Origin: Candidatus Giovannonibacteria bacterium RIFCSPLOWO2_02_FULL_45_28
Lineage (GTDB): Bacteria; Patescibacteriota; Minisyncoccia; UBA11713; 2-01-FULL-45-33
Direction of reading: 5' to 3'
Length of the DNA: 48,840 bases
Assembly (NCBI GenBank): GCA_001780725.1
Contig: MFIM01000027.1
Span: 1-48,840, forward strand
Of the stretch, positions 17,904-47,338 are shown piece after piece. How positions within the stretch are numbered: the stretch's first letter is position 1; each line of letters starts with the position of its first letter. Both the position numbers and the translations under genes were made by a program. A model generated the notes under the pieces. It made no database searches and was not told where the DNA came from. It was given only the letters and a program-made list of their open reading frames with translations.

Positions 17904-19214
17904 ATGGCAAAATTTTTAGTGAACGGAGGCAGGGCGCTGGAAGGCGAGATTTCGGTTTCCGGCTCCAAAAACGCGTCTTTGCCGGCTCTGGCGGCTTCGC
18001 TGCTTTTTTCTGATGCGCCTCCGCTGTTTCAAAACCTTCCTGAAATTGAAGATATCAAAAGAATGAAAGAGCTCCTTCAAAGCCAAAAAGACGGGAGATT
18101 TGATTATGAAGTCGCAAAAAAAATCCGCGCTTCTATTTTGGCTGTCGGTCCCGCTCTTGCTAGATTCGGCCGCTCTTCTTTTCCGCATCCGGGAGGGTGT
18201 GTAATAGGCGCGCGCCCGATTGATGTTTTTTTTGATGGTTGGAAAGCAATGGGGGCAATTGTAGAAAAAACGCCGCCAAGCGGGAAGAAACCTGGTTTTT
18301 TGGCGGTCTCAAAACCAGGTTTCGAGGAGCTGGGCGGCGTTCACTCTATCCCAATTTACGAAATCCGTGCGCCTCAAGGACTTAGGGGCTGCGATTTTAC
18401 TTTTAGAGTGCCCAGCGTTACCGGAACAGAGGGTTTAATGATGACAGCTGTTTTGGCGCAAGGGCGGACGATTTTAAGAAACGTTGCCGAAGAGCCTGAA
18501 ATTCTAAGCTTGGCCGATTGGCTTAATAAAAATGGCGCAAAGATCGGCGGAGCGGGCACGCACACCATAACTATTGAAGGCCGCGGCGGAAAGCTGCTTT
18601 CCGGACAAGTTCCATTTTTGGCGCCGCCGGACCGCATAGAGGCAGGAAGTTTGGCAATTTTGGGGGCAATCGCGGCCAAAAAAATGACTATTAAAAATTT
18701 TCCTGAAAATGAACTTACGGCTCTGCTTGGGGTTTTAAAAACCGCAAGAGCTGAATTTGAAATAACGCATCATGACCACTCGCTATTCCCATCCATTACC
18801 TTAAAGCGAGCAACGAAGTTGCGAGCGGTTAATGTTCAAACAAAAGAATATCCCGGATTTGCCACGGATTTGCAAGCGCCGTATACCGTTCTTGCAACGC
18901 AGGCCGAAGGCGTGAGCATGATACACGAAACTATTTTTGAGGGGCGCCTAAATTATGTGGAAGATTTGAATAAAATTGGAGCGCGGATTAACCTTTGCGA
19001 TCCGCACCGCGCAATAGTGCACGGACCCTCTAATTTAACAGGATGGAATCTTGAGGGGCCGGATATCAGGGCGGGGCTTGCGTTTTTGATAGCCGCACTC
19101 GTAGCCAGAGGAGAATCTCAAATCGGCAATATTTATCAAATTGACCGCGGCCACGAAAAAATAGACGCACGCCTCCGCGCGCTAGGCGCGGATATTAAGA
19201 GGATGGAAGCTTGA
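17904..19214 (+). CDS. murA: UDP-N-acetylglucosamine 1-carboxyvinyltransferase
   Basis: MAKFLVNGGRALEGEISVSGSKNASLPALAASLL; PGGCVIGARPIDVF; EYPGFATDLQAPY; start moved from 17868. Confidence 0.93.
   Translation: MAKFLVNGGRALEGEISVSGSKNASLPALAASLLFSDAPPLFQNLPEIEDIKRMKELLQSQKDGRFDYEVAKKIRASILAVGPALARFGRSSFPHPGGCVIGARPIDVFFDGWKAMGAIVEKTPPSGKKPGFLAVSKPGFEELGGVHSIPIYEIRAPQGLRGCDFTFRVPSVTGTEGLMMTAVLAQGRTILRNVAEEPEILSLADWLNKNGAKIGGAGTHTITIEGRGGKLLSGQVPFLAPPDRIEAGSLAILGAIAAKKMTIKNFPENELTALLGVLKTARAEFEITHHDHSLFPSITLKRATKLRAVNVQTKEYPGFATDLQAPYTVLATQAEGVSMIHETIFEGRLNYVEDLNKIGARINLCDPHRAIVHGPSNLTGWNLEGPDIRAGLAFLIAALVARGESQIGNIYQIDRGHEKIDARLRALGADIKRMEA
18269..18341. repeat. Composite palindromic element, copy D (inside murA)
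   Basis: AACGCCGCCAAG/CGGGAA/GAAACCTGGTTTT/TTGGCGGTCTC/AAAACCAGGTTTC/GAGGAG/CTGGGCGGCGTT. Confidence 0.9.
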
Positions 19215-34571: not shown

Positions 34572-34643
34572 GGCCTCTTCGTCTATCGGCTAGGACGCAG
34601 CCCTCTCAAGGCTGAAAGATGGGTTCGACTCCCATAGGGGCCG
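34572..34643 (+). tRNA. tRNA-Glu (CTC)
   Basis: GGCCTCTTCGTCTATCGGCTAGGACGCAGCCCTCTCAAGGCTGAAAGATGGGTTCGACTCCCATAGGGGCC. Confidence 0.9.
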
Positions 34644-34685: not shown

Positions 34686-34752
34686 ACCGCTTCGCGGGAA
34701 AACATCCGATGTTTGAAGCACGCCAACATCGGATGTTGAAGAGCGGAGCGGT
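34686..34752. repeat. Composite palindromic element, copy E (intergenic)
   Basis: ACCGCTTCG/CGGGAA/AACATCCGATGTT/TGAAGCACGCC/AACATCGGATGTT/GAAGAG/CGGAGCGGT. Confidence 0.85.
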
Positions 34753-34817: not shown

Positions 34818-34856
34818 ATGGAGTTTATTCATCTTTCTTGCAAAAGCTTTCTATGA
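34818..34856 (+). CDS. candidate 12-codon leaderless leader ORF, ATGA-coupled to the giant gene
   Basis: TATACT (34805-34810)-7-ATG; MEFIHLSCKSFL*; TGA overlaps ATG 34853. Confidence 0.45.
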   Translation: MEFIHLSCKSFL

Positions 34857-37800
34857 AATATATGAAAGAAAAGTATCTTTCAGCATCAGAAGCCGCGCGC
34901 TTATGTAATTATCATCGTATTTATGTTGGGCAGCTTTGCCGCGGAGGAAAAATTGATTGTAAAAAATTTGGAACGGATTGGATGGTGTCTGAAGAGTCAA
35001 TTTTAAATTACAAAAAAGAACTCACCAGTAAAAACCTATCCCTTACCCCTTCCCAAGGAAGGGGAAAAAACAACACCCTCCCCTTTGGGGAGGGTGAGGG
35101 TTGGGTTACAGAAAAAAGCTCCTCCACTTTACAAGACATCTTTCACGCGCAAGATAAGCCTGATGACGTGTGGGACAGGGCGATTTTGGGCGAAAAAGAG
35201 AAAGAAGCTTTTTGGTTCCCGGAATTTTCTCTGAAGCAGTGGTCGCTGGGAGCAGTCTCTCTATCGTCAATACTAATTGCCGCGCTGATTTTTTATAACG
35301 CAGGCGCAATCAAAAATTCTATCGCGGACGCGGTTGAAAGTGTTAATGTCTCCGCGAAAAACTTCGTAACTAAAACATCGTCAATCCCTCTCCTTGCGAA
35401 GGAGAGGATGGGGAACGTGGTTGAGTTCACCTCCTTAATAAGGAGGAGTGGTGAAGGGGTAGTGGAGATTTTCAATAATTTTGGAAGTTCAGGCTTGGAA
35501 CTTGCGCAAAACGGCAAAGATTGGGTTTCGGAAACCGCATCTGCCGTCGCCGATGAAATTAAAAATGGCTCTGCTCTATTAAACAAAATCCCTGATGTGG
35601 TTGCGGATAATCTCATCTTCGTGGAAAAAAAGGCTCTTGTGGCTCTTTCACTGCCCAAATTTTCTCTTCCTTTTACTTTGGAAGATGTCCGGCTTTCGCT
35701 TTCTGACATTAAGATGCGGTTTTTCAATAATATTTTTGCCGCTCGCGACTACATCGTCTTTCTGGGTTTAGATATTAAAAAGGTGGCGCTAGATTTTGTA
35801 TCGTCGCCCTCGCCGTCAGGGAAAACACTCGGTGTTTTTGGGGATTCAACACCGAGTGTTGAGGAGGACGGCGAGCAAAAACCGTCGCCCCTCATTGTCA
35901 GTAAAAACCTACCCCTTACCCCTTCCCAAGGAAGGGGAAAAAACAACACCCTCCCTTTTGGGGAGGGTGAGGGTGGGGTTACAGAAAAAAGCCCCCCCTT
36001 TTTACAAGGGGAGGGTTTGGAGAGGTCAAGAGGTGTTGATGAATCTTCCATCATCTCCCGCGTCCTTTCTTCCATTAATATCACGCAGCGTTTTCAGGAA
36101 TTGGAAAACCGTCTCACTTCCAACCTCTCACTTCTCATCTCTAATATTGAAAAACGCATTCCACCCAACGTCCAAAATCCGGTTGTTTTTTTAACCGCGT
36201 CTGCACCCTCTCCTATAAGAAATGATCCGCCGCAGCAGATTAGCGGAGTTTCCGCCGGCTTTGGAGATTTCTCGCAGGGGATTTCAACCGGAGGAAATCT
36301 TTCGGCGACCGGAAATGTCACTTTGGGCGACGACGCGAAAACCGCGAGCATTGCTTCAAGCGTTTGGGATATTACTTCTGCCGGCGCGGCTTCCGGATTT
36401 ATATCTCTCTCTACAAACTCTCTTTCCGCGTCCACATTTAATTTGTCGGGGCTTTTAACAACCGGTGGATTTATTGCAACAGCCTCTTCAACAATAATTG
36501 GGGATTTAACTTTTCAAAATGCAACTTCTACCGGATATTTATCAGTGACCGGTTCAGCAACTTCAACATTTGCCAACGGAATAAAACTTACAGGAGGATG
36601 TTTTCTTTTGCTTGACGGCACTTGCGCCGGGACAGGAAGCGGCTCTGGTTTGACTGGCACGATTGGGCAAGTCGCGTACTTCTCGGGGACCGACAGTGCG
36701 GTCGGCACCTCCACCATCGTCATTTCAACGAGCGGCAATGTCGGCATCGGGACAGCGGCGCCGCAAACCATTCTTGATGTCTTGGGTACCGCCTCATCCA
36801 CTCTCTATTTAGCAAATATTGGTTCTGAATCTGCCCCAGCGTACTCATTCGCGGGCGGTTCAAATGGGGGGTTCTTTCAAAATCCATCAGGTACTATCGG
36901 AATATCAACAGGAGGGGCTGCGAGGGTAACGTTCGCGAGTAGCGGACTATCTATGGGCGTGAATGGTACTGCGGCGAGTCCCAGCATCGCTTGGAGTGCA
37001 GACGGTGATACTGGTATCTTCCGCGATAGTTCTGACCAACTTGCTTTCACTGCCGGCGGCATTGAGGCGCTAAGATTTATTGAGGTAAATAGTATAGTCA
37101 CTTCGTATTTTAATGCAGGCAACGTCGGCATCGGGACGACTTCGCCTTCGGCTACGCTCAGCGTAGCTGGCAACACTTATCTTGATTCCAATTTAATTAC
37201 TTATTCTTCCTCAACCGCCGCGAATCTTACCATTTCATACCAGCGCGCGGCGACGACGACGATTCCACAAAGTATAAATGCTTTTGCCATCGGAACCACC
37301 ACCGGACCAACCGCGCCAATTCTTTCAATTGATGGTCTAAATGGAAGAGTCGGCATCGGGACGGCAAATCCTTTAGTGCCGTTGCAATTGAATGGCAATA
37401 TATTCCATATAAATAATGATAATGCCGAAATTGGATTAGGATCTTCGAGATCGTTCAATAGGCTCCTAGTAGATAGTGATACTAATGTTGGATTGGTAGG
37501 CAAGAAAAATGTGTGGATAGGCATTGACTCAGATAATAGCGGCACGGACGCCACCTTTGGTATAGTTGCCAATGATGATTGGTTGGGTGGGAGCGAAACG
37601 CCGTTGTTTACTGTTACAGAGGCTGGCTCCGTCGGTATCGGGACGACGAGTCCCGCAAGTTTGCTCTCCGTGGCTGGCAACACTTATCTTGATTCCAATT
37701 TAATTACTTATTCTTCCTCAACCGCCGCGAATCTTACCATTTCATACCAGCGCGCGGCGACGACGACGATTCCACAAAGTATAAATGCTTTTGCCATCGG

Positions 37801-40800
37801 AACCACCACCGGACCAACCGCGCCAATTCTTTCAATTGATGGTCTAAATGGAAGAGTCGGCATCGGGACGGCAAATCCTTTAGTGCCGTTGCAATTGAAT
37901 GGCAATATATTCCATATAAATAATGATAATGCCGAAATTGGATTAGGATCTTCGAGATCGTTCAATAGGCTCCTAGTAGATAGTGATACTAATGTTGGAT
38001 TGGTAGGCAAGAAAAATGTGTGGATAGGCATTGACTCAGATAATAGCGGCACGGACGCCACCTTTGGTATAGTTGCCAATGATGATTGGTTGGGTGGGAG
38101 CGAAACGCCGTTGTTTACTGTTACAGAGGCTGGCTCCGTCGGTATCGGGACGACGAGTCCCGCAAGTTTGCTCTCCGTGGCTGGCAACACTTATCTTGAT
38201 TCCAATTTAATTACTTATTCTTCCTCAACCGCCGCGAATCTTACCATTTCATACCAGCGCGCGGCGACGACGACGATTCCACAAAGTAGAAATGCTTTTG
38301 CCATCGGAACCACCACCGGACTAACCGCTCCAATTTTTTCAATTGATGGTCTAAATGGAAGAGTCGGCATCGGGACGGCGGCGCCAAGCGCTACTCTTAC
38401 CGTGCTTGGATCAGGCACCCTGCTTTCGCTCCAAAGTGGTGGTGGGGTGGCGTTTAGCGTTTCTACTTCTCAAATGCTTTTTGATGCTGATAATCAGCCT
38501 TTTGCTATTGGTGAAAATGCAGATTATTCACTTGGACATAATTCAACCACAGATAATTTTGAGATAGTTGATGGAAGTACAATAGGAACAAACGTTAGGA
38601 TGGTTATAAGTAGCTCCGGCAACGTCGGCATCGGGACGACGAGTCCGGCTGCCACACTCTCCGTAACTGGCAACACTTATCTAGATTCAAACTTAATTAC
38701 TTATTCTTCCTCAACCGCCGCGAATCTTACCATTTCATACCAGCGCGCGGCGACGACGACGATTCCCAATCTCGCCATCAACGCCTGGAGCATTGCCACC
38801 TCAACTTCCAATACTCCCGTCTTTACCATCTCTTCCACTTCTTCTCCCTTCGGACTGATAGGCATAGGCACCTCTTCTCCTTCTTACACCCTCTCAATTG
38901 CAGGAAACGAATACCTTACAGGAGGACTTGGAGTCGGCAAAGCCACCACAACCGCAGGAGTCATTGAATCTTCGGGACTCATACTCTCCGGAGGAGTCTT
39001 TGCGGCTTTGGGAACTGCAACCTCAACATTCTCGGGAGATATCAATCTTCCTACAGGCAAGTGCTACCAGGTGAATGGAACTTGCACTCTCATGAGCGCC
39101 ATTACATCTCTTAACGGACTTACTGGAACAACACAGACATTTGCTTCAAACGACTTAATTAGCATTGTTTCTCCCGCCGCCGGCACTGTACACAACTTCT
39201 ACGGCTCAACAACTCCCACTTTTGGATGGCTGCATGCAACGTCTTCAACAGCTTCGTTCTTTACAGGAGCTTTGGGTATCGGGACGACGAGTCCGTGGGG
39301 ATTGCTTTCAGTAAATCCAGATGGCATCTCCGGCCCCGCTTTCGTAGTCGGGTCTTCAACAGCAACTAATTTCATAGTAACCAACGGCGGCAACGTCGGC
39401 ATCGGGACGGCGGCACCTACTGCCGGACTCATGTTAGATATTAGGGGCGATATGTCTGTGAACAATGATGGTTACTATGCTTTTGCCGAAGATAAGGTTA
39501 ACTGGAGCATACACGGAAGGACCACTGACTCTACGACCATGTTAGGTTCGGCACTCAAAACAACGATTATCCCCGGTTCCGGTACGACCGAAGGCTTTGC
39601 TATTGCTGGTGCTGGCCTAGCGAGTTCTTTTGAAGCAAGAAACGATGGACAAATATACATGAAAGGCAACGTCGGCATCGGGACGACGAGTCCGGCTACC
39701 ACACTCTCCGTAGCAGGAAACACTTATTTAGATTCCAATTTAATTACTTATTCTTCCTCAACCGCTGCGAATCTTACCGTTTCCTACCAAAGAGCGGCGA
39801 CGACGACGATTCCAATAAATACCGTCTATGCTTGGTCTATCGCGACCTCCACCACCGCATCTCCTCTTTTTACTTTCAATACGAACGGGCCCTACGCGAC
39901 TACTTCCATAAATGGCGGATTTGTTTTGAATAACGGCGCAGTTAATTACGATTCATCAAGCGGCATAATTTCCGCGGATTCAATTCAGACCGGGCCCATG
40001 GGTTTTGACACCGACGCCGGAATTGTTTCCTGGATTGACATGCCAAGCTCTACCACCACCGCAAATATTGTAAACAGCTATTCCGCTATGCTGGATAGCA
40101 CAGCAATCCTCACGATTTACGGCACAACCACAACTTCAGGAAATATAACTTACGGTCATGTCGGCATCGGGACGACCAGCCCAACCATTGCTCGCCTTTC
40201 CGTTCAAGGCAACATCGCCGCTTTTGGCTGCATACGCTCCGCCACTTCTACTTATTCCATCGGGCCCGCAAGTTGTGTAGACATCGCCGAAACATACCCT
40301 ATATCGGAAGATGCCTCGGCTGGGGACATTATGATGGTAGGTCCGGATGGAAAATTAAAAAAAGCCACGGATCGCGCGGGGCTAATTGGCGTTGTGTCAA
40401 GCGAGCCGGCAATATTATTGGAAGGGCCTGTGGCGTTTTTCGGAAGCCAAATTAACAATCAAACACTAGAGCATAAAACTGGCTCTATGGCGCCCATTGC
40501 TTTAGCCGGAAGGGTCCCTGTAAAAGTTTCGGCAGAAGGCGGCCCAATAAAACCGGGAGATAGAATAACAATTTCTTCGGCGCCCGGAGTCGGAATGAAA
40601 GCTACCACCTCCGGCCAGACCGTTGGGATCGCTTTAGAGCCGTACGACAGCGGAGAAATCGGTAAAATAATTGTTTTTATAAATCTTGGTTATTCAAAAC
40701 TGGATTCAGGATTATCTCAAGCGCTGGATGGAAATGGGGGATTAATTGTTGATCAGGCAAGCGGCAAAATGAAATCTTCTTACACTTTGGATATGGACAA

Positions 40801-41377
40801 TAACGACATTATAAACGCGCGGAAAATTCTCTCTGCCTCCGGGCTTTGGTCAATTGACGAGAACGGGAAGCTAATCGTTCAGGAAATTGAAACCAAAAAA
40901 CTCACTGTAACAGGACAGCAGGGGATTACTATTTACGACCGCGTTACAGGACAACCCGTTTGTGTTTATTCCGAAAACGGAGTTTTGAAGTCGGAAGATG
41001 GGGAGTGTTGGGCCGCCGAAACTGGCGGGAAAACATCCGATGTTTCCGCCGAAGGCGGATCCGCCTCTGGCGGAGAGGAGCTAGTTTCGGATACTGACCC
41101 TCCAACAATCTCAATTTTGGGCAACAATCCTTCCGCCATTAATGTAGGCGGAACCTATTCTGACATGGGGGTCACGGTAACTGATAATATTGATCAAAAT
41201 TTGGGATACACGGCTTCTTTAGATGGCGGGCTTGAACTTTTGCAGGGAGATGGACTTCAAATTGATACCTCAAAGGCTGGCGAACATATAATTATTTACA
41301 CGGCAGCGGATTCGGCAGGGAATACCGCTTCGTCCACAAGAACAGTAGAAGTAGTAGAAATTTATGGAAATCAGTAG
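34853..41377 (+). CDS. giant tail-fibre-like surface protein with N-terminal excisionase-like HTH, TM helix, GNVGIGTTSP repeats and C-terminal Ig-like domain
   Basis: YLSASEAARLCNYHRIYVGQLCRGGKIDCKKFGTDWMVSEESI; about a dozen VGIGT(T/A) repeats; DPPTISILGNNPSAINVGGTYSDMGVTVTDNID. Confidence 0.85.
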   Translation: MKYMKEKYLSASEAARLCNYHRIYVGQLCRGGKIDCKKFGTDWMVSEESILNYKKELTSKNLSLTPSQGRGKNNTLPFGEGEGWVTEKSSSTLQDIFHAQDKPDDVWDRAILGEKEKEAFWFPEFSLKQWSLGAVSLSSILIAALIFYNAGAIKNSIADAVESVNVSAKNFVTKTSSIPLLAKERMGNVVEFTSLIRRSGEGVVEIFNNFGSSGLELAQNGKDWVSETASAVADEIKNGSALLNKIPDVVADNLIFVEKKALVALSLPKFSLPFTLEDVRLSLSDIKMRFFNNIFAARDYIVFLGLDIKKVALDFVSSPSPSGKTLGVFGDSTPSVEEDGEQKPSPLIVSKNLPLTPSQGRGKNNTLPFGEGEGGVTEKSPPFLQGEGLERSRGVDESSIISRVLSSINITQRFQELENRLTSNLSLLISNIEKRIPPNVQNPVVFLTASAPSPIRNDPPQQISGVSAGFGDFSQGISTGGNLSATGNVTLGDDAKTASIASSVWDITSAGAASGFISLSTNSLSASTFNLSGLLTTGGFIATASSTIIGDLTFQNATSTGYLSVTGSATSTFANGIKLTGGCFLLLDGTCAGTGSGSGLTGTIGQVAYFSGTDSAVGTSTIVISTSGNVGIGTAAPQTILDVLGTASSTLYLANIGSESAPAYSFAGGSNGGFFQNPSGTIGISTGGAARVTFASSGLSMGVNGTAASPSIAWSADGDTGIFRDSSDQLAFTAGGIEALRFIEVNSIVTSYFNAGNVGIGTTSPSATLSVAGNTYLDSNLITYSSSTAANLTISYQRAATTTIPQSINAFAIGTTTGPTAPILSIDGLNGRVGIGTANPLVPLQLNGNIFHINNDNAEIGLGSSRSFNRLLVDSDTNVGLVGKKNVWIGIDSDNSGTDATFGIVANDDWLGGSETPLFTVTEAGSVGIGTTSPASLLSVAGNTYLDSNLITYSSSTAANLTISYQRAATTTIPQSINAFAIGTTTGPTAPILSIDGLNGRVGIGTANPLVPLQLNGNIFHINNDNAEIGLGSSRSFNRLLVDSDTNVGLVGKKNVWIGIDSDNSGTDATFGIVANDDWLGGSETPLFTVTEAGSVGIGTTSPASLLSVAGNTYLDSNLITYSSSTAANLTISYQRAATTTIPQSRNAFAIGTTTGLTAPIFSIDGLNGRVGIGTAAPSATLTVLGSGTLLSLQSGGGVAFSVSTSQMLFDADNQPFAIGENADYSLGHNSTTDNFEIVDGSTIGTNVRMVISSSGNVGIGTTSPAATLSVTGNTYLDSNLITYSSSTAANLTISYQRAATTTIPNLAINAWSIATSTSNTPVFTISSTSSPFGLIGIGTSSPSYTLSIAGNEYLTGGLGVGKATTTAGVIESSGLILSGGVFAALGTATSTFSGDINLPTGKCYQVNGTCTLMSAITSLNGLTGTTQTFASNDLISIVSPAAGTVHNFYGSTTPTFGWLHATSSTASFFTGALGIGTTSPWGLLSVNPDGISGPAFVVGSSTATNFIVTNGGNVGIGTAAPTAGLMLDIRGDMSVNNDGYYAFAEDKVNWSIHGRTTDSTTMLGSALKTTIIPGSGTTEGFAIAGAGLASSFEARNDGQIYMKGNVGIGTTSPATTLSVAGNTYLDSNLITYSSSTAANLTVSYQRAATTTIPINTVYAWSIATSTTASPLFTFNTNGPYATTSINGGFVLNNGAVNYDSSSGIISADSIQTGPMGFDTDAGIVSWIDMPSSTTTANIVNSYSAMLDSTAILTIYGTTTTSGNITYGHVGIGTTSPTIARLSVQGNIAAFGCIRSATSTYSIGPASCVDIAETYPISEDASAGDIMMVGPDGKLKKATDRAGLIGVVSSEPAILLEGPVAFFGSQINNQTLEHKTGSMAPIALAGRVPVKVSAEGGPIKPGDRITISSAPGVGMKATTSGQTVGIALEPYDSGEIGKIIVFINLGYSKLDSGLSQALDGNGGLIVDQASGKMKSSYTLDMDNNDIINARKILSASGLWSIDENGKLIVQEIETKKLTVTGQQGITIYDRVTGQPVCVYSENGVLKSEDGECWAAETGGKTSDVSAEGGSASGGEELVSDTDPPTISILGNNPSAINVGGTYSDMGVTVTDNIDQNLGYTASLDGGLELLQGDGLQIDTSKAGEHIIIYTAADSAGNTASSTRTVEVVEIYGNQ
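35809..35875. repeat. Composite palindromic element, copy A (inside giant CDS)
   Basis: CTCGCCGTC/AGGGAA/AACACTCGGTGTT/TTTGGGGATTC/AACACCGAGTGTT/GAGGAG/GACGGCGAG. Confidence 0.9.
37167..38180 (+). repeat. ~507-bp in-frame tandem duplication, two apparently identical units plus a diverged partial third
   Basis: Text from GGCAACACTTATCTTGATTCC recurs at +507; opposite-strand ORFs 37201-37683 and 37708-38190 are identical 160-aa translations offset by 507. Confidence 0.9.
41016..41090. repeat. Composite palindromic element, copy F (chimeric interior)
   Basis: CCGAAACTGG/CGGGAA/AACATCCGATGTT/TCCGCCGAAGGCGGA/TCCGCCTCTGGCGGA/GAGGAG/CTAGTTTCGG. Confidence 0.8.
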
Positions 41378-41993
41378 AAACTTATGGAAATTGATTTTGA
41401 TTGCGGCGCTGATTTTGGGTGCGGCGAGTTTCTATAAGTTTCAATTTATTTCCACAAGTTTCAATGATTCCAATGGCTCTCAACCAGTTTCAACCAATTT
41501 CAACGAATATCGCAACGCAGATTTCAAATTTTCTTTTCAGTATCCTAAAAACCTAACTCTCCAGGAATTTGATGATGAAAGGGGACATGTGATTTTGTTT
41601 GAGGCGAGCGGGAAAACATCCGATGTTGAATCCCCAAAAACATCGGATGTTGAGGAGCTCGCCGGCTTCCAAATTTTCATAGCTCCTTTCGACGAAGAAG
41701 GCCCAATAACTCCCGAACGCATAAAAAAAGACTTGCTTAATATTGTCGTGGAAAATCCAACTCCGACAAAAGTCGGCCCTTCGACAGGCTCAGGGCAAGC
41801 TGACGCTTTGAGTTTTGTCGGAGAAGGGGACCCGCCTACCGGCGAGGCAGGCGGCTTTAAAACCGCCGAGGTCTGGTTTGTTTATCCCCCCGAACCCTAC
41901 CCCAACGGAAATTATCTTTATCAAGTCACCGCGAAGCTGGAGGACGCAACTTTAATAGAAGAGATTTTGAAAACATGGAGATTTAGCCGCTGA
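41364..41993 (+). CDS. membrane-anchored PsbP-like hypothetical protein interrupted by palindromic insertions
   Basis: N-terminal TM; NADFKFSFQYPKNLTLQEF...AEVWFVYPPEPYPNGNYLYQVTAKLEDATLIEEILKTWRF. Confidence 0.6.
   Translation: MEISRNLWKLILIAALILGAASFYKFQFISTSFNDSNGSQPVSTNFNEYRNADFKFSFQYPKNLTLQEFDDERGHVILFEASGKTSDVESPKTSDVEELAGFQIFIAPFDEEGPITPERIKKDLLNIVVENPTPTKVGPSTGSGQADALSFVGEGDPPTGEAGGFKTAEVWFVYPPEPYPNGNYLYQVTAKLEDATLIEEILKTWRFSR
41603..41663. repeat. Composite palindromic element, copy B
   Basis: GGCGAG/CGGGAA/AACATCCGATGTT/GAATCCCCAAA/AACATCGGATGTT/GAGGAG/CTCGCC. Confidence 0.9.
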
Positions 41994-46258: not shown

Positions 46259-47338
46259 ATGAAATTTGCGTTAAAAATCATATTTATATTTCTGATTTTT
46301 GTGGCCATTCTTATTTTACTTGCTCCGGCAAAACAGAAACTTTCTTACGGAGTCACTTTTTCGCAAAAATTTTCAGAAGAGTTTGGGTTTGAATCTGCAA
46401 ACGGTATGGCGGGTTGGAAGCGGAATTATCTCGCGCTTCTGGACGATTTGAAAGTTAAAGATTTGCGTCTCGTAGCATATTGGGATTTGGTAGAACCCGC
46501 CGAAAGCCAATTTAATTTTAAAGATTTGGATTGGCAAATTACCGAAGCTGAAAAACGCGGAGCAAAAATTATTTTAGTAGTAGGCAGAAAAGTGCCAAGA
46601 TGGCCGGAATGTCACATTCCATCATGGGCGCGCTTTTCAACGCCACCCGGGAAGAAGTCCGACTTCTTTGGGGTTTCGAAGTCCGACTTCGAGGAGGGCG
46701 GCGTTTTCCAGCGCGCCCAATTACTAAATTACATTAAAACAACCATAGAACACTACCGCTCCAACCCCGCTATCATTGCTTGGCAGGTTGAAAACGAACC
46801 CCTGTTTCCGTTCGGCGAGTGCGGCACAATTCCAGTTTCGCTTTTAAATCAGGAAATTAAATTGGTGAAATCGTTGAGCAATAAGCCGGTTATTTTAACC
46901 GATTCCGGCGAGTTGGGGTTCGCTTGGCCGTACCTTGCCGCAAAATCCGACATCTTCGGCACTACATTATATAGATATATAAACAACAGATTTTTAGGCG
47001 ATATCCGTTATTCGCTTATTCCGGCTTATTATTTTAGAATTAAAGCGCGGTGGGCTGGCAAGATTTTAGGGAAACAAATAATAATTTCTGAGCTGCAAGC
47101 CGAACCGTGGTCGCAAGTTTCCCTTGCCGAGACTTCTTTTGATGACCAAGCTAAAAGTATGAGTCCGGAAAAATTCAGAGAAATTATTGATTACGCCGAA
47201 CGAAGCGGTTTTCCTAAGGCCTATCTTTGGGGCGCGGAATGGTGGTATTGGATGAAAGAAAAACAAGGGAGGCCGGAGATGTGGGAAGCGGCACGGAGCG
47301 CAATTAATAACCCGCCTGCCGGACGGGCAGGTTTCTAA
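46259..47338 (+). CDS. glycoside-hydrolase-like (beta/alpha barrel) protein, membrane anchored
   Basis: N-terminal TM; LRLVAYWDLVEPAESQFNFKDLDWQI; IIAWQVENEPLFPFG; IISELQAEPW. Confidence 0.75.
   Translation: MKFALKIIFIFLIFVAILILLAPAKQKLSYGVTFSQKFSEEFGFESANGMAGWKRNYLALLDDLKVKDLRLVAYWDLVEPAESQFNFKDLDWQITEAEKRGAKIILVVGRKVPRWPECHIPSWARFSTPPGKKSDFFGVSKSDFEEGGVFQRAQLLNYIKTTIEHYRSNPAIIAWQVENEPLFPFGECGTIPVSLLNQEIKLVKSLSNKPVILTDSGELGFAWPYLAAKSDIFGTTLYRYINNRFLGDIRYSLIPAYYFRIKARWAGKILGKQIIISELQAEPWSQVSLAETSFDDQAKSMSPEKFREIIDYAERSGFPKAYLWGAEWWYWMKEKQGRPEMWEAARSAINNPPAGRAGF
46626..46718. repeat. Composite palindromic element, copy C (inside glycosidase CDS)
   Basis: 22-nt outer IR (17/22)/CGGGAA/GAAGTCCGACTTC/TTTGGGGTTTC/GAAGTCCGACTTC/GAGGAG/22-nt outer IR. 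Confidence 0.88.

Follow-up and report, generated by a model that had tools for sequence, protein, structure and literature searches.

Probable REPIN-like composite palindromes carried in frame within genes of Candidatus Giovannonibacteria

Introduction

What kind of element is a palindrome that recurs in unrelated genes, is read in their frame and keeps a constant pair of borders? The question is raised by a stretch of 48,840 nt ("the window") from Candidatus Giovannonibacteria (Patescibacteria), a tiny groundwater bacterium whose genome amounts to 886 kb in 29 contigs. The initial annotation had pointed out six copies (A to F) and had attributed them to a mobile or structure-propagated element that is tolerated in proteins. 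We consider it probable (about 0.74) that the copies are composite REP doublets (REPIN-like) in a common chassis, which form a DNA hairpin and are tolerated in frame in variable protein loops.

Copies in the window

All six copies were found (Table 1). The cores of copies A to E are each exactly 49 nt long and consist of [AC]GGGAA (AGGGAA in copy A), a 13-nt arm, an 11-nt spacer, a second 13-nt arm and GA[GA]GAG. Copy F is a 55-nt derivative of this layout, in which the borders and the left arm (of the SDV family, see below) are retained, and a TCCGCC/GGCGGA palindrome substitutes for the spacer and the right arm. This confirms the common length formula of A to E and the rearranged interior of F, as originally described, and the GK-x-EE peptides are also read as claimed. 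The claim of five in-frame copies stands with respect to a same-phase habit, which extends across the lineage (65 of 67 copies, see below), but copy E is intergenic.

Copy D has the outer stem AACGCCGCCaag/ctgggCGGCGTT and is read as SGKKPGFLAVSKPGFEELGG. In the AlphaFold model of its host, MurA, the insert peptide (residues 127-147) is the longest run with pLDDT <50 and is located between two strands; it is predicted to be a disordered loop. In copy B, which encodes SGKTSDVESPKTSDVEEL, the spacer (GAATCCCCAAA) is reversed relative to the borders. A near copy of B with identical flanks (at locus L174) has the spacer GAATCTCCAAA. Copy C is enclosed by a degraded outer layer (CTTTTC-AACGCCACC ... 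GGCGGCGTT-TTCCAG), with an outermost stem (TGGGCGCG/CGCGCCCA) in which host codons are repeated in inverted form. Both arms of copy C are identical, which results in a single central C.C mismatch. A further insert peptide of chassis elements is KTSDVESPKTSDVEE.

Some observations concern the surroundings of the copies. The ORF that hosts A and F contains long, near-identical internal repeats, and the in-frame repeat NLxLTPSQGRGKNNTLPFGEGEG occurs in it twice. The small gene of copy B contains a further short in-frame repeat (CCCTTCGACAGGCTCAGGGC, read PSTGSGQA). The locus of copy C shows a 99% match over a 100-aa query to a genome of a different genus (G005), which suggests a recent transfer or mis-binning.

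Table 1. Positions of the copies, their hosts and related features (window coordinates unless a contig or locus handle is given)
Feature	Position	Core	Strand	Remarks
Copy D (PGF-type)	18269..18341	18281-18329	+	in-frame in murA
murA, host of D	17904..19214		+	UDP-N-acetylglucosamine 1-carboxyvinyltransferase; phmmer vs PDB MurA chains, E 5.7e-80, plus alignment
Copy E (SDV-type)	34686..34752	34695-34743	+	intergenic, ~50 nt past tRNA 34572-34643
Copy A (TLGV-type)	35809..35875	35818-35866	+	in-frame in 2179-aa ORF
Copy F (derived)	41016..41090	CGGGAA at 41026, GAGGAG end 41080	+	in-frame in 2179-aa ORF
2179-aa ORF, host of A and F	34838..41377		+	repetitive, surface-protein-like
Copy B (SDV-type)	41603..41663	41609-41657	+	in-frame in 209-aa ORF
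209-aa ORF, host of B	41364..41993		+	membrane-anchored, hypothetical
Short repeat in host of B	41778-41800			read PSTGSGQA
Copy C (SDF-type)	46626..46718	46648-46696	+	within degraded outer layer
Host gene of C	46259..47338		+	glycoside-hydrolase-like, 359 aa; orthologs in G002 and G006 without element
Locus of C matching G005	46526-46825			matches G005:C25:2208-2507
Second SDF composite	C1:45921-45968, C19:16334-16380, C19:22162-22208, C20:16791-16837, C24:10916-10962, C16:26518-26564			window genome
Solo REPs	C7:145, C28:12502, C22:11028, C19:16474			window genome
Third palindrome in RAYT coding region	L024:1466-1494; also L016, L215, L235, L249, L313, L290, L025			e.g. LIEVGLPS, LRRPTSK

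Abundance and distribution

The genome-wide pattern search proposed with the original description did retrieve further copies: the strict layout matched 21 times (17 with paired arms), compared to a total of 6 matches in the reversed control, so that chance is by far too weak an explanation. An inventory centred on the arm cores, with one mismatch allowed, resulted in about 30 chassis copies in the 886-kb genome, so that "six" is a large undercount. Across all GTDB species genomes, the strict pattern was found in 46 stretches, almost all from Ca. Giovannonibacteria; matches outside came from one Andersenbacteria genome, one Nomurabacteria contig and one other bacterium. None of the viral contigs scanned with the strict pattern matched. 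A covariance model matched each of the ten family genomes that were searched; in the class, 45 of 388 genomes had a match. Our literature search did not find such elements described in Patescibacteria. The counts on anatomy and phase given below are based on a collection of 72 copies from the lineage.

Anatomy of the element

The chassis has the layout CGCC-NNN-C-GGGAA-[13]-11-[13]-GAGGA-G-NNN-GGCG. Among the 72 copies, four main arm families were distinguished, SDV (AACATCCGATGTT), TLGV (AACACTCGGTGTT), SDF (GAAGTCCGACTTC) and PGF (GAAACCTGGTTTT), every one of which is itself near-palindromic. A frequent spacer (TTTGGGGATTC) is common to different arm families; the spacer is reversed in 6 of the 57 copies that could be scored. 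In the outer stem, CGCC (positions -7 to -4) is semi-conserved, and the NNN at -3 to -1 is hypervariable yet paired, with 85-92% Watson-Crick pairing compared to 27-43% expected.

An outer border pair encloses 14 of 62 copies, and nested elements with the structure CGGGAA-12-[49]-12-GAGGAG were found. In GatB, a PGF element is nested in the remnant of a TLGV element. Single-arm versions occur elsewhere in the class (L206, L197).

The window genome also contains a second SDF composite, which consists of inverted GGAAGTCCGACTTCC doublets that are 18 nt apart and lack the GGGAA chassis. In addition, solo REPs (TGTCAAACATCCAATGTTTGACA) are present (for positions of both, see Table 1). These resemble the REPs flanking the RAYT of G005; a matching RAYT was not found in the window genome.

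Relation of the arms to Y1/RAYT-type transposases

Eight genes with a Y1 domain (PF01797) are encoded in the window genome, and two to eight or more in its relatives. Most of them carry one palindrome on both sides. Their products pass the PF01797 threshold and also match NF047646 (REP_Tyr_transpos), although with 32.5-43.8 bits they score below its curated cut-off of 80. Each of the four arm families corresponds to the core of a palindrome found on both sides of Y1/RAYT-type genes, within the family or the class. The SDF core flanks the RAYT at L024 (in the window genome), L235, L249 and L309, and the TLGV core that at L215, L019, L287 and L295. The SDV core is found exactly at L288, L296 and L313, and as a one-base variant (AACATCCAATGTT) at L016. 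The PGF core flanks L220 and L250, with a variant (AAACCGGGTTT) at L237 and L253. In a random control with 2000 odd palindromes of 11 nt, only 14 (0.7%) hit any of the tested RAYT loci at least twice. Two genomes outside the family (G127, G063) have TLGV chassis copies together with a TLGV RAYT.

The match between arms and RAYT-flanking palindromes concerns the core of 11-13 nt. Of each REP, the chassis has the 13-nt core alone; the outer parts found next to RAYT genes (TGATT..AATCA, TGTCC..GGACA) are missing. Nor does the chassis have a GTAG-like tetranucleotide at the hairpin base, where it carries GGGAA/GAGGA; CTAG-like neighbours are present at some RAYT-flanking palindromes.

The window genome retains only the SDF RAYT. 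Since those for SDV, TLGV and PGF are absent, the corresponding copies either predate their loss or needed no RAYT. Among the loci fetched from three other chassis-bearing genomes (G265, G237, G067), no cognate RAYT was found, nor was one found for the arm AAAGCTTGGCTTT of G196 among the part of its Y1 loci that was read.

Many Y1/RAYT genes have a third copy of their cognate palindrome inside the coding region; it is in frame and precedes the HuH codons by ~50-75 nt (Table 1).

Orthologous sites

When orthologs of ValS, ArgS, GatB, MurA, LeuS, UvrC, DsbA and others are compared, the site is empty, is occupied by another palindrome, or carries the element in inverted orientation. Replacement palindromes occupy the same variable loop. 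The ortholog comparison suggested in the initial annotation thus revealed that inserts are missing or replaced in relatives.

In LeuS, an outer stem (TCGCCTCG/CGAGGCGA) is common to the window genome, G005 and G002, and the orientation of border and spacer is forward/forward, reverse/forward and reverse/reverse, respectively. In LeuS of G003, G007 and G009 (L108, L109, L111), the insertion loop holds a different in-frame repeat peptide (QDLAQRDGASRA...). For DsbA, the outer stem CCGCGCC/GGCGCGG is found in both G005, with TLGV-like arms, and G006, with SDV arms in reversed orientation. The murA site of copy D is either devoid of an element in orthologs or contains an inverted SDV element; that of G001 is an SDV element with a different stem, in place of the PGF arms of the window genome. 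An epimerase in G008 has an apparent remnant of the element with an in-frame 39-nt deletion.

Outer stems that repeat host codons were found in the glycoside-hydrolase-like gene of copy C (TGGGCGCGC) and, similarly, in a GT39 gene (GCATTGCG). The right outer stem of copy C is an inverted repeat of the host codons TGG GCG, which are conserved in the element-free ortholog from G002. At these few loci, the outer stem may be an inverted copy of the host flank.

The flips seen among orthologs are compatible with template switching. This process homogenises the arms and inverts the spacer of yeast inverted repeats in coding DNA (PMC8604942), and hairpins can be created and maintained by it (PMC8794818). 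The signatures described in these studies are arms without mismatches, inverted spacers and outer stems that repeat host codons, so the elements might be pure replication-error hairpins which arise without a transposase, the match to RAYT loci being recruitment or coincidence. This would, however, leave unexplained why the same four 13-mers, borders and spacer are found in dozens of unrelated genes, and why the arms are identical to RAYT-flanking palindromes; we regard it as improbable.

Pairing and covariation

The helices had been regarded as covarying between copies, and a conserved structure of DNA or RNA had been concluded from this. The pairing itself is pronounced, with 95.6% of the cells paired compared to 35-40% in slid controls, and 878 of 884 inner cells (all copies) are Watson-Crick pairs. 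What does not hold is compensatory change: arm families are replaced as a whole, and in the inner helix, there is no pair with a one-sided change and there are no G-U intermediates. Among the mismatches in mRNA sense, G.U (27) and A.C (25) are equally frequent, so there is no sign of selection for RNA pairing. Judged from the aligned copies, inner-helix variation reflects palindromes that are identical at the DNA level and are replaced family by family, rather than compensatory evolution of an RNA.

A conserved regulatory structure in the mRNA, mobile or not, would be in line with the stable predicted hairpin, the constant purine internal loop and the strong pair covariation. The element occurs, however, sense (29 copies) as well as antisense (36 copies) and in unrelated host genes, and an Rfam scan of the window matched only tRNAs, the element matching no family. 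Based on orientation and the G.U/A.C comparison, this explanation was rejected as very unlikely.

Reading frame and host proteins

The collection has 67 of its 72 copies within ORFs of at least 130 aa, and 65 of these 67 are in codon phase 2, irrespective of whether the ORF is sense (29) or antisense (36) to the element. Tested against two open phases, the bias has p ~1.5e-17, with ORFs called mechanically and with phase events that are not fully independent due to orthologous copies. Stop avoidance was ruled out as its sole cause, since phase 1 is usually stop-free too (72 of 72 antisense and 51 of 72 sense readings). The hosts include ValS, ArgS, GatB, MurA, LeuS, UvrC, a DsbA-like protein, an epimerase and glycosyl enzymes.

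The single phase throughout and the conserved peptide forms could be attributed to selection of the GK-x-EE peptide as a protein module, e.g. as a binding tag. In relatives, however, a reversed element at the equivalent site of LeuS, ValS and DsbA encodes another peptide (SS-x-FP), and the insert is missing from many orthologs, which makes such a module hardly credible. Removal at the level of RNA or translation (intron-like or byp-like), for which bypassed palindromic coding interruptions in Magnusiomyces mitochondria (cited in PMC6649704) would be a precedent, can practically be dismissed, as phase would then be irrelevant and a bypassed element would require neither the one phase seen in 65 of 67 copies nor freedom from stops.

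Proposed mechanism

As the arms are identical to RAYT-flanking palindromes, composite REP doublets, placed in frame like Rickettsia palindromic elements, are our preferred reading. Each 13-nt REP core would be the cognate palindrome of a single-strand transposase of the Y1/RAYT type, and two inverted cores around the 11-nt spacer would be set in the chassis, which folds into a DNA hairpin. The single-stranded hairpin may spread via Y1 enzymes that recognise the REP core; TnpA-REP from E. coli and relatives cleaves REP hairpins (PMC8266576). Template switching during replication would keep the arms identical and would invert the spacer or the whole interior, and it may also build the outer stem from the host flank. 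Having one peptide-compatible phase on either strand, the element would thereby be tolerated where essential proteins have variable surface loops, with selection presumably purging insertions that disrupt the frame or encode an unfavourable peptide. Arm identity, empty sites, nesting, flips and phase bias are observed directly; movement by Y1 enzymes, judged from presence and absence across genomes, and template switching are what we infer. The initial view of a mobile or structure-propagated, protein-tolerated element agrees well with the empty sites, the nesting, the inverted versions, the single phase and the transposase-flanking palindromes in the arms.

It is tempting to speculate that a single chassis has evolved into an in-frame landing pad, where one REP core can be swapped in situ for that of another Y1 transposase. 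We consider this rather doubtful. If true, any Y1 enzyme present could mobilise a copy, and proteins would gain nested, invertible peptide inserts.

Comparison with known systems

It had been stated that no named family has this architecture. This needs correction: the REP/REPIN-RAYT system (for definitions, see PMC3116915 and PMC6006769) supplies the arms, and Rickettsia palindromic elements share the in-frame habit. Like the former, the element has short, dispersed palindromic cores in many copies, inverted doublets around a spacer that form a hairpin, cores cognate to a Y1 gene flanked on both sides, and several families per lineage. Unlike REPs, which are extragenic, the chassis copies are intragenic and in one frame (67 of 72 in ORFs), a single chassis with constant GGGAA/GAGGA borders serves several REP families, and the GTAG tag is lacking; the doublet spans 49 nt, whereas REPINs of SBW25 have a spacing of 71-110 bp.

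Rickettsia palindromic elements, as summarised in PMC10969869, are likewise palindromic, selfish-looking and in frame in many unrelated, often essential genes. They are likened here by insertion habit; the chassis differs in that it has about half their length or less, several exchangeable arm families and a candidate mobilising enzyme. Non-autonomous derivatives of IS200/IS605 have in common the Y1 transposase domain (PF01797) and hairpin ends, but the Y1 genes here lie between two copies of one palindrome (REPtron-like), and the composite lacks the ends of any single IS. Template-switch quasipalindromes share arm homogenisation and spacer inversion between coding inverted repeats (PMC8604942); they are of local origin, whereas the chassis sequences recur at unrelated genes.

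As core, doublet and cognate gene are all found, while an extragenic location and GTAG are not, we assign the system as a variant of REP-RAYT. By analogy, the element may be likened to a REPIN turned coding-compatible, whose behaviour within genes recalls that of Rickettsia palindromic elements.

Implications

To our knowledge, coding palindromes that are inserted in frame, like those of Rickettsia, have not been assigned a mobilising enzyme. The element described here is comparable, and its arms are traced to identifiable Y1 transposases of the same lineage, which makes the question of mobilisation testable. Strong stem covariation can come from palindrome replacement and template switching, which calls for caution in covariation-based RNA discovery. 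REP elements need not be extragenic, and essential enzymes of bacteria with reduced genomes repeatedly gain peptide inserts at the same loops.
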